In this document: positions 25,184 to 30,715 of the stretch, piece by piece
Layout: every line of letters begins with the position of its first letter
Position numbering within the stretch: the stretch's first letter is position 1
Origin: a virus
Virus record (IMG/VR): IMGVR_UViG_3300021952_000026
Location: 1-31,795 of that record
Strand: one strand, 5' to 3'
DNA: 31,795 nucleotides
Notes under the pieces: generated by a model
The model's input: the letters and a program-made list of their open reading frames with translations, nothing else
What the model was told of the DNA's origin: nothing
Database searches by the model: none
Position numbers and translations under genes: made by a program

Positions 25184-25924
25184 TTAACTCCAGATGATTT
25201 GCCCCCGGTCGATCTTGCCTTGAGCAAGGCCGGCGATGATTCGGTTTTTCATTTTCTGCGCCTGTACATAATACGCCAGCTTGAGTTGATTTTGAATCAC
25301 GCTTGCGTTGGGCATCTTCGATTCGTTGCGCGCTAAAAATTGGATGACCTTTTTGTTGTGCTTGTACTTAAAAATGCTGGCAACGTGCCCTTTGTTTTTG
25401 CTGACCCAATCAGGAAGGCTGATTCCCAATTGGTCGGCTGCATTTGCCCAACCCGCCGCCGTGATGCCGATGCGTTTCTTAAGCAACTCATTGATGGCCA
25501 CCATTTGCCAGTCCCACACAGGACGTTTTTGAAATCCAGCAGGAATGCGTTTGTTGGCCTTTTGTTTGGATTGAAACCACCGCACCAACGCCGTCGGTGA
25601 TTCGTTCATCATTTCCGGATTGATGCCCTTCCGTTTAAAGAATCGAAGATCGCCAACGTAGCGAGATTTAATAGGGATAAACGCGTCGTTTAAATCGCGT
25701 TTGATGGCGCTTGTGTTTGCCCGCAACCCCTTAGCATAGGTCTTGTTGGTCGGGCTCATCGGCGGAGTAAGCGTCAGCGCCGTTTTGATCACGCCCTTAA
25801 ATTGTTCGCGAGCCACCACCTCCGCAGTGCGGTGGCATGTGTGCAGCACGTTACTCAGCCAAACATCAAACTGATCTTTAGCAAACTTTGCGGATACTTT
25901 CGGGCGTGAAACGGGCGCGGCCAT
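25184..25924 (-). CDS. Hypothetical protein between chaperone and tape measure (246 aa)
   Basis: A highly basic, helical protein with no recognisable family. Segments include FDVWLSNVLHTCHRTAEV (residues 18-35), TLTPPMSPTN, FFKRKGINPEMMNES, RPVWDWQMVAINELLKKRIG (134-153) and the C-terminal YYVQAQKMKNRIIAGLAQG. Its ATG shares one base with the GT stop (TAATG), so it is coupled to the chaperone. In most siphoviruses the tape measure follows the chaperones directly, so this is an unusual insertion. It could be a tail assembly factor, but nothing proves this. Confidence 0.6.
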   Translation of the reverse strand: MAAPVSRPKVSAKFAKDQFDVWLSNVLHTCHRTAEVVAREQFKGVIKTALTLTPPMSPTNKTYAKGLRANTSAIKRDLNDAFIPIKSRYVGDLRFFKRKGINPEMMNESPTALVRWFQSKQKANKRIPAGFQKRPVWDWQMVAINELLKKRIGITAAGWANAADQLGISLPDWVSKNKGHVASIFKYKHNKKVIQFLARNESKMPNASVIQNQLKLAYYVQAQKMKNRIIAGLAQGKIDRGQIIWS

Positions 25925-26151
25925 TACTCGGAATCTTCATCAATAGGCACGGTGCGAAGCAATTCATCCACAGTTTGCATTGCCTGAGGCCCCGATGGTT
26001 TCACCGTCCACGCTCCATTGATCCACAGCGCCGCGTGATAGTACCGCATCAAACGCGCCAAGGGTGCCCGCCGCATGATGTAGTCCTCAGTCCATCCGGT
26101 TTCACGGGCCAGGGTGAGCACAAACGACTCCAAAAACCCCGGCCCAATTAG
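25924..26151 (-). CDS. GT-type frameshift extension of the tail chaperone
   Basis: The -1 frame relative to the 114-aa G-like gene. After slippage at GGGAAAC (26157-26151) reading resumes CTA-ATT-GGG and runs 75 residues to the stop at 25924, giving a G-GT fusion of about 189 residues. The extension contains LESFVLTLARETGWTEDYIM and a tail of acidic residues. The frame has no ATG or GTG near its start and closes upstream just before the slip site, so it cannot be an ordinary separate gene except from TTG at 26133. This is the usual lambda G/GT arrangement. Confidence 0.8.
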   Translation of the reverse strand, partial: LIGPGFLESFVLTLARETGWTEDYIMRRAPLARLMRYYHAALWINGAWTVKPSGPQAMQTVDELLRTVPIDEDSE

Positions 26152-26157
26152 TTTCCC
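26106..26157 (-). promoter_or_regulatory. Programmed -1 ribosomal frameshift signal (slippery heptamer plus stem-loop)
   Basis: On the minus strand the heptamer G-GGA-AAC occurs at 26157-26151 in the zero frame, of X-XXY-YYZ form and close to lambda's GGGAAAG. The zero-frame stop TAA follows at once. After a 5-base spacer (TAATT) comes a 10-bp stem (GGGCCGGGGT at 26145-26136 with ACCCTGGCCC at 26115-26106, one G-U pair) with a 20-base loop. Slippery site, spacer and stimulatory stem are the canonical components. Confidence 0.85.
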
Positions 26158-26492
26158 GGCGCGTCAGAGCTGCCAGAGTCACGCGGCACAACATCCACGC
26201 GGCCATCCTCAATCATTGCGTTTTGCTCGGCGCACCATGCTGCCACGGGCTTTACCAAAGCGAAGGGAAACCAACGCGAGAATGCTTCAATCTCAGCCTG
26301 CGCAGTGCCGTTTGTAATGGCGGCTTCCACCGCTTCGGGGTCGCGCGATTGCAGCCACGCGATGGCAGCAATCTGCTGCGTTTCTTCCAATTTGGAAAGT
26401 TCCAGTTTTTGCATTGCCACCTGCGTTGTCAGCGTCCACGGCAACAACTCAAGCGGACCTACGGTTTTGCGCGCAAGAAGAAATGGGCTCAT
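26148..26492 (-). CDS. Tail assembly chaperone, G-like (114 aa)
   Basis: Functions as the short form of a lambda G/GT-type chaperone that coats the tape measure during tail assembly. No sequence match can be claimed; the call rests on position before the tape measure, size, helical composition (TTQVAMQKLELSKLEETQQIAAIAWLQSRD) and above all the -1 slippery site at its 3' end. It ends GRVDVVPRDSGSSDAPGN immediately before the slip. The ATG overlaps the preceding stop (ATGA). Confidence 0.75.
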   Translation of the reverse strand: MSPFLLARKTVGPLELLPWTLTTQVAMQKLELSKLEETQQIAAIAWLQSRDPEAVEAAITNGTAQAEIEAFSRWFPFALVKPVAAWCAEQNAMIEDGRVDVVPRDSGSSDAPGN

Positions 26493-26932: not shown

Positions 26933-27247
26933 TTAGCTGGCGTAGGGGTATGCAACTCCCGTGGCTTCCCAGCCATAAAAATCGTCATTCTTTGTCATCT
27001 TCTTTACGCTTGTAATGATGCATTTGCCGGTAGACAAAGACGGAAAACCGGAAGACCCCCCCAACGTGAAAGGATTGGTGTCCCCCTTGCCGCGGGCGTT
27101 AAACGACGATGACGCATCAAACGACTTCGCAGTGTAATGCGTCCCATCCGAGGAAATCAACTGCTTGAAATCGGCTTTGGTTTCAAAGTCAGTGGATTCA
27201 ACAACAACGCCCGAAGGGTTGATAATAGAAATACCAAAGGATGCCAT
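26933..27247 (-). CDS. Small tail protein, tail tube candidate, homologue of the upstream gene (104 aa)
   Basis: Beta-rich sequence (FGISIINPSGVVVE, SSSFNARGKGD) without Cys pattern or TM. Its last third, IITSVKKMTKNDDFYGWEATGVAYPY, aligns with LTSAKVSETNDDFAISEATYTYFH of the preceding gene, so the two are probably a duplication. Position after the completion proteins and before the chaperone is where major tail (tube) protein genes lie. It is shorter than most tube proteins, so the role is tentative. Confidence 0.6.
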   Translation of the reverse strand: MASFGISIINPSGVVVESTDFETKADFKQLISSDGTHYTAKSFDASSSFNARGKGDTNPFTLGGSSGFPSLSTGKCIITSVKKMTKNDDFYGWEATGVAYPYAS

Positions 27248-27252
27248 AAAAT

Positions 27253-27552
27253 TTAATGGAAGTAAGTGTAGGTCGCTTCGGAAATAGCAAAGTCGTCATT
27301 GGTTTCAGAAACCTTTGCGCTCGTTAAAGTTGCGCCTGTGAAGTTTGATGTTGGAACGCTAAGGAGATCAACTTCACCTTTGGTTTTAACAGTGATGGTT
27401 TCGGTGCTCCTTGGCTTTGGCTGCGCCACCACAGTTTTACCTTCCGAACTGCGAATTGTTGCCACTTCTAGCGTTTTGTCCGCAGATGATTCTTGCAAAT
27501 AGCCTTGAGGTAGGCCAACCCCTAAAGCTGAAGCTCCAAATGATACGGGCAT
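27253..27552 (-). CDS. Small tail protein, tail tube candidate (99 aa)
   Basis: Beta-rich, with VVAQPKPRSTETITVKTKGEVD in the middle and the shared C-terminal motif NDDF....EATY.Y. It is homologous to the next gene over its C-terminal half. The start has only an A/T-rich leader, no Shine-Dalgarno. The two genes are separated by five bases. One may be the tube subunit and the other a cap or specialised variant; nothing shows which. Confidence 0.6.
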   Translation of the reverse strand: MPVSFGASALGVGLPQGYLQESSADKTLEVATIRSSEGKTVVAQPKPRSTETITVKTKGEVDLLSVPTSNFTGATLTSAKVSETNDDFAISEATYTYFH

Positions 27553-29887: not shown

Positions 29888-30715
29888 CTATTTCTTGACC
29901 ATCGCAAGCAATTTGTCATAGGCGGCTTGCTCCAAAAGGATGCCGTCGATGATGTTGTTTGCAAGAGCACGGGGGGCAAAGAAAGCCTGCCCGCGCATCG
30001 CCTCGGGCGACACCTTGCGGTTTCGGAGCACATTGCCACGGAACTGGTCAAACGCGTCTTGCACGTACTCTTGCAGCGAAGCGCGCTGCGCCGCCGTTAG
30101 ACTCGGGCCCATACCAGCGCCTTTAAGATCGCCCTCGGCGTTGGTAATAGGCTCCCACGACATCCCTTCATCAGCCCACATTGCAGACTGATCGCACCAC
30201 GGAATGATGGTGCCAATACTCCCCCAAGTGGACGACTGCGAACCAAACAGCTTAGTGCAACTCACCGCCAGATTGTACCCGGCAGAAGCGCAAGTGCCGT
30301 CGCTGTACGCCACAATCGGAATCCGTTTGGCAAGGTCTTGAATTAGGTCGGAACATTCTGCACAGCCTTCAACGGCGCCGCCGGGCGTGTCGATGTCGAG
30401 CCAAATGCCTTTGACGTTAGCGCGGCTTGCCTCTTGTAGATCGTCCTCTAGCCACTCGTAATCGTACCCGCCGCAGATCGCTTCGAGTTGCGAAATCCCG
30501 CGCGCCATGGTGCCCTCAATGTGGATGTGCGCGATCCCATTTGGGTCGATCTCCATCTCTTCGCGTTCGCACCCACCCAACGCGGACAAGTCGGGCATCT
30601 CAGCGCGAGCAATGCGAGCCTCTACAATCTTACGGATTGAGGCGTAGCCACCCGGCGTGATGAGCCAAGGCCTGTGATATACCTGCTCAATAATGTGTGC
30701 AAATCTCTTGTGCAT
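29888..30715 (-). CDS. S49-family head maturation protease (275 aa)
   Basis: SppA/ClpP-type serine protease, used by lambda-like phages to mature the prohead. The nucleophile motif is DGTCASAGY with S144, and a Lys in the position of the S49 dyad is K198 (EGDLKGAGMG). The fold core VKGIWLDIDTPGGAVEG (101-117), IPIVAYSDG (132-140) and TKLFGSQSSTWGSIGTI are in order. The lambda protease (gpC) carries scaffold as its C-terminal part; here the length fits the protease domain alone, so the next gene may be the scaffold. Three bases separate it from the portal. Confidence 0.88.
   Translation of the reverse strand: MHKRFAHIIEQVYHRPWLITPGGYASIRKIVEARIARAEMPDLSALGGCEREEMEIDPNGIAHIHIEGTMARGISQLEAICGGYDYEWLEDDLQEASRANVKGIWLDIDTPGGAVEGCAECSDLIQDLAKRIPIVAYSDGTCASAGYNLAVSCTKLFGSQSSTWGSIGTIIPWCDQSAMWADEGMSWEPITNAEGDLKGAGMGPSLTAAQRASLQEYVQDAFDQFRGNVLRNRKVSPEAMRGQAFFAPRALANNIIDGILLEQAAYDKLLAMVKK

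Follow-up and report, generated by a model that had tools for sequence, protein, structure and literature searches.

What is read beyond the last codon of a small gene, G, in the virus record IMGVR_UViG_3300021952_000026, and why does a stop codon directly follow its putative slip site? The window (i.e. the whole stretch of DNA that was analyzed) comprises the 31,795 bases of this record, and its structural genes are on the minus strand. Just upstream of the tape measure gene, two open reading frames, G and T, are found in the 0 and −1 frames. This arrangement is very probably a programmed −1 ribosomal frameshift that would supply two tail assembly chaperones from one mRNA. The elements under discussion are as follows.

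26492-26148, minus strand: zero-frame gene G, 114 aa, TAA included; the short product (putative tail assembly chaperone)
26157-26151, minus strand: slippery heptamer GGGAAAC, read G_GGA_AAC in the zero frame, in the phase of the open reading frame at 26492-26148
26150-26148, minus strand: zero-frame stop TAA adjoining the heptamer; a stop is adjacent in 53 of 67 non-redundant loci
26150-26146, minus strand: spacer TAATT, 5 nt
26145-26136, minus strand: 5′ arm of the putative stimulatory stem, GGGCCGGGGT (fold, covariation, synonymous recoding control)
26115-26106, minus strand: 3′ arm of the putative stimulatory stem, ACCCTGGCCC (fold, covariation, synonymous recoding control)
26151-25924, minus strand: −1-frame region T, 75 codons, with first codon CTA (26151-26149) and stop TAA (25926-25924)
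25180-23858, minus strand: tape measure gene (PHROG match, E 1.6e-15)

The cassette and its surroundings

A base-by-base check agreed with the cassette that the initial annotation had listed: the heptamer, the TAA, the 5-base spacer, the 10-bp stem with one wobble pair, the closing TGA and the 75 open codons were all confirmed at their coordinates, all on the minus strand. The 3′ end of G reads ...GCG CCG GGA AAC TAA, and the −1 frame is closed upstream by TGA at 26166-26164. The stem has ten pairs, including one G-U, and its 20-nt loop folds a further 4-bp helix. A single-strand fold of 26095-26160 yielded −29.4 kcal/mol (z −2.65; 3 of 200 shuffles were as low), and the 45-nt stretch downstream falls in the lowest 0.2% of the strand. 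Heptamers of the XXXYYYZ type, in contrast, often arise by chance (109 in the window, 50 on one strand and 59 on the other); the heptamer by itself was thus weak evidence, and the case had to rest on relatives.

In the mechanism envisaged, G would be the product of most ribosomes, which terminate at the TAA of ...GGA AAC TAA. When the two tRNAs sit on GGA (P site) and AAC (A site), the stem, which starts 5 nt further on, would resist unwinding in some ribosomes, and both tRNAs would re-pair one base back, onto GGG and AAA. After such a slip, reading would continue with CTA into T, giving a G-T fusion of 189 aa. We infer that the slip takes place, and its efficiency likewise. G and GT would presumably act like gpG and gpGT of lambda, which is to say that they would load the tape measure protein and recruit the tail tube protein.

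The window's G and T matched no Pfam or PHROG family, and scans of their relatives (T against Pfam, G against PHROGs) gave no meaningful match. Relatives of G were aligned in alignment A5. An AlphaFold model of G (pLDDT 84) features a beta hairpin and five helices; a PDB structure search with this model returned nothing informative and no solved relative, and a comparison with viral models returned a single clear relative to which no function is assigned. Because these searches furnished no family match and no solved relative, the name “tail assembly chaperone” rests on gene position and shared mechanism. G and T are accordingly described as a putative lambda G/GT-type chaperone marked by position and mechanism and not by homology. 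Searches of annotated phages with T (tblastn) and with the major capsid protein gave no match. A single genome-contig match (L123) was rejected as chance, as no heptamer and no G or T frame is located there.

Several neighboring genes were noted. T and the tape measure gene are separated by a 246-aa gene at 25184-25924 (minus strand), which counts against the chaperone reading. The ATG of this gene overlaps the stop of T (TAATG), it had no Pfam or PHROG match, and a related gene follows T in locus L003 and probably in L002. The short genes at 26933-27247 and 27253-27552 (minus strand; 104 and 99 aa) are neighbors with similar C-terminal ends and no family match; possibly they are tandem duplicates at the place expected for the tail tube gene. 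A Peptidase S49 domain protein, likely the prohead protease, is encoded at 29888-30715 (minus strand), between the portal and major capsid genes.

Conservation of the slip site, the frame switch and the stem

Searches with single sequences yielded one relative each for T and G. In both of these first relatives the cassette was complete, with GGGAAAC-TAG in one and AAAAAAC-TAA in the other, and both had a stem of their own. Profiles were built from the window and these two sequences, and viral contigs were searched with them, giving 67 loci by T and 50 by G. Near copies (>90% identity in 240 nt) were dropped to obtain a non-redundant set of 67 loci, the window included.

An in-phase XXXAAA[C/A] was located exactly at codon 1 of T in all 114 loci with a usable T region. 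X is G, A or C, and the last base is C in every locus but L071. On a tree of 65 G-T proteins, X changed at least 10 times, the whole triplet being swapped each time. These swaps put Gly, Lys or Pro at the residue preceding the final Asn of G; since that residue varies while the slip motif stays, it is the slippery property that has been kept and not the amino acid. Substitutions were also counted by codon position in 89 close pairs. Upstream of the heptamer, the zero frame gave 581/323/1830; downstream of it, with the stem left out, the −1 frame gave 417/115/1241. From these biases, selection passes from one frame to the other at the heptamer.

The stem was examined in a gapless alignment of 68 columns (alignment A4), in which a 13-pair helix was scored over the 67 loci. 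Of the cells in this helix, 85.3% were paired, compared to 78.2% in shuffles and 27–48% with slid partners. Double-change cells numbered 73, compared to 22 in the shuffles, and none of 500 shuffles had as many. Because relatedness inflates covariation counts, a second control was run in which the amino acids of T were fixed and the codons were redrawn. The stem of the window (−23.6 kcal/mol) was much lower than the recoded mean of −11.8 kcal/mol (sd 3.1), and none of 100 recodings was as low; over the relatives, 65 of 67 loci were at 0.05 or below in this control. By these two comparative measures, the stem is under selection.

Taken as a whole, the comparison shows selection on the heptamer and its phase, on the switch of frame and on the stem. 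The initial annotation had proposed a lambda-like −1 frameshift strategy and had named the heptamer and stem of relatives as a check on it; with heptamer, frame and stem conserved in 67 non-redundant loci, the proposal is strongly supported.

Other ways of producing T were weighed against this evidence. T could be a separate gene, translated by reinitiation after the TAA of G (e.g. from TTG 26133 or GTG 26121), with the heptamer incidental. Both of these in-frame codons are present in the window, and the stop is close by, as in coupled genes. However, in 17 of the 67 loci the T frame lacks ATG, GTG and TTG all the way between its upstream stop and codon 30, and T is therefore unlikely to start by itself there; in the other loci, the place of the start varies. 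In addition, residues of T upstream of any start are conserved, the first predicted helix of T starts at residue 6, right behind the slip, and all 114 loci retain the heptamer. The start-less loci and the frame switch, both comparative observations, point to T as an extension of G with no start of its own, and we consider reinitiation very improbable. Transcriptional rather than ribosomal slippage might also make the fusion, and the A_AAA_AAC relatives do have at least six consecutive A, the sort of run that can make RNA polymerase slip. The long homopolymer run that marks a transcriptional-slippage cassette is nonetheless absent from the window, whose GGGAAAC has no run of more than three bases; many relatives use GGGAAAC or CCCAAAC, the phase of the heptamer is invariant, and the stem is selected, all of which leave this explanation hardly credible. 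A single gene split by sequencing or assembly error, for which nothing speaks beyond the split itself, is already refuted by the relatives, as the same split in the same phase recurs in 114 loci from many samples with X as G, A or C.

Three further features of the relatives were recorded. First, the base behind the heptamer is T in all 114 loci, and the first codon of gene T is consequently CTN (Leu), the sole non-redundant exception being ATA in L071; this invariance could reflect a protein constraint or be part of the slip context. Second, in L072 (6001-6093) and L073, the T frame is only 31 codons long and stops close to where the contig ends, the heptamer and stem being preserved; this is probably an effect of the assembly end or a damaged copy. 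Third, many A_AAA_AAC relatives (L080, L081, L085, L093, L098, L099, L100, L102, L103, L109, L112 and L113) feature a GGGAGG or AAGGAG that resembles a Shine-Dalgarno sequence; it is located about 12 nt before the heptamer and ends about 7 nt short of it. The stimulator of E. coli dnaX resembles this element. A Shine-Dalgarno stimulator was looked for upstream of the window's heptamer and was absent. A point against the frameshift is that A_AAA_AAC, the heptamer of such relatives, promotes −1 slippage weakly in E. coli (PMC5009743), from which the host of this phage group may differ; it is strong on mammalian ribosomes and is used, along with GGGAAAC, by haloarchaeal viruses (PMC5009743). The near-universal XXXAAAC of the group may say something about the tRNAs of its hosts.

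The stop codon directly behind the slip

A zero-frame stop stands right behind the slippery heptamer of the window (TAA, 26150-26148), making it a stop intercodon. Among the 67 loci, the zero-frame stop is the next codon in 53, one codon later in six (TAG every time) and 6–11 codons away in eight, in which the heptamer and stem are intact. The expected number of adjacent stops, given the Leu codon CTN of T (one ATA), was derived from ordinary coding regions of the same contigs. It was 9.4 against the 53 observed, and none of 20,000 simulations, which ignore relatedness, exceeded 22. CTA is used at the slip in 39 of 67 loci, compared to 7.3% of CTN codons elsewhere. The tree called for at least 12 changes among stop types with a stop kept, and for 11 changes in the presence of the adjacent stop. 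Given this excess and the repeated changes of type, the position of the stop adjoining the slip is selected. The adjacent stops are TAA in 26 loci, TGA in 14 and TAG in 13, compared to a background of 258 TGA, 234 TAA and 101 TAG. A slow-stop signal was sought in the four-base stop contexts and was not found; the window has TAAT.

What might such a stop do? The reading that we place first is structural, or one of economy: the stop would end the abundant G before the stem. G would then be free of residues encoded by the stem, and ribosomes that do not shift could leave without melting it. In the exceptional loci with a far stop, the stem-encoded tail of G amounts to about ten residues. We judge this reading to have roughly an even chance of being correct.

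Placed second is a tuning of the product ratio. The adjacent stop might lower the G:GT ratio or tie it to the level of release factor, since some of the slips would occur while the stop occupies the A site. In the systems that have been tested, −1 slippage at a stop intercodon faces competition from release factor (PMC4373837), and a haloarchaeal virus, HCTV-2, has the same layout. On the other hand, with all three stop types in use, no preference for one release factor is seen, and in loci that lack a nearby stop, stem energy shows no obvious compensatory change. It is tentatively conceivable that the stop is a working part of the cassette in this sense, with release-factor decoding against slippage setting the G:GT ratio and possibly tying tail assembly to the termination capacity of the host.

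Placed third is the suggestion of the initial annotation that the stop stimulates the shift, slow termination holding the ribosome on the heptamer and raising the slip. A stop is selected at that codon, with at least 12 changes of type that preserved a stop, and stops take part in +1 shifts such as that of prfB (PMC5009743). The published effects, however, run in the opposite direction. When HIV-1 constructs with a stop at the same codon were expressed in mammalian cells, −1 shifting dropped by about 70% (PMC4373837); in bacteria, according to earlier work of the same group cited in PMC4373837, frameshifting fell and was abolished by raised RF2. The HIV-1 intercodon evidence implies that the stop more likely competes with the slip than helps it. 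Moreover, slow stops are not enriched, and eight of the 67 loci do without a near stop. A stop-pausing component is therefore unsupported, and we think it unlikely.

Comparison with known systems, and significance

Among known systems that come close, lambda G/GT (GGGAAAG) is likewise situated upstream of the tape measure gene and has a short G, a −1-frame T and a GGGAAA-type heptamer near the end of G. Short stretches of T right behind the slip look alike in lambda and the window (SFALKLAREMGRPD and SFVLTLARETGWTE). The likeness covers 14 residues at the same offset behind the slip, and it ranked 15 among shuffles in hmmsearch and had an hhalign probability of 9%; homology of T to lambda T, N15 T, P2 E′ and the HCTV T regions was rejected as not significant compared to shuffles. 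The two systems differ in that the last heptamer base is G in lambda and C in the window, in that a strong near stem is present and selected in the window's group, unlike lambda, and in the extra gene between T and the tape measure gene of the window. The earlier statement that lambda G runs on past its slip is correct: it continues for 15 nt before TGA, compared to 0 nt for the G of the window.

Slip-to-stop distances are 18 nt in P2, 15 nt in N15 and 27 nt in both HCTV-1 and HCTV-5, and means of 26 nt (SEA-PHAGES) and 36 nt (Xu set) were given in the PRFect paper (PMC10885494). HCTV-1 has two genes between T and the tape measure gene, compared to one in the window. The tail assembly chaperone of HCTV-2 resembles the present case in its AAAAAAC with TGA directly behind and in its annotated −1 fusion upstream of the tape measure gene. 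Its T has no sequence likeness to that of the window, and the 50 nt from the stop on hold no comparably strong stem (−12.8 kcal/mol). With this precedent, the adjacent stop is unusual among tail chaperones, not unique. Rous sarcoma virus and barley yellow dwarf virus are eukaryotic RNA viruses with other heptamers, downstream structures and products. In both, too, a stop codon is found right behind the slippery heptamer (PMC4373837).

The nearest annotated relative of the window's tape measure protein is that of Verrucomicrobia phage P8625 (22.6% identity over residues 7–183, E 3e-4), a weak pointer to the host. Just before the tape measure gene of P8625, gp18 (L007, 8361-8981; 206 aa) aligns in order with G-T; unlike the window, it is one unbroken frame without a heptamer. 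The notion that gp18 is a natural unshifted G-T fusion was set aside, as the alignment is colinear but not significant (hhalign E 0.22). A search for relatives of gp18 found only near-identical ones.

Frameshifts of this kind are already known. The protein family has no name in the libraries that were searched, and the adjacent stop, itself selected, represents a modest variation. An automatic annotation, finding neither G nor T in Pfam or PHROGs, would either overlook T or list two small genes as unrelated; through the cassette, a putative chaperone can be assigned to this phage group despite its unmatched G and T. The comparative set includes at least 10 swaps of the heptamer triplet, at least 12 swaps of stop type, 11 gains or losses of the adjacent stop and one conserved stem; the unsettled part played by the codon after a −1 slip site thereby becomes amenable to testing in bacteria. 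If release-factor competition does operate at this codon, the group would constitute a natural series of stop-type swaps with which slippage could be timed against A-site decoding.
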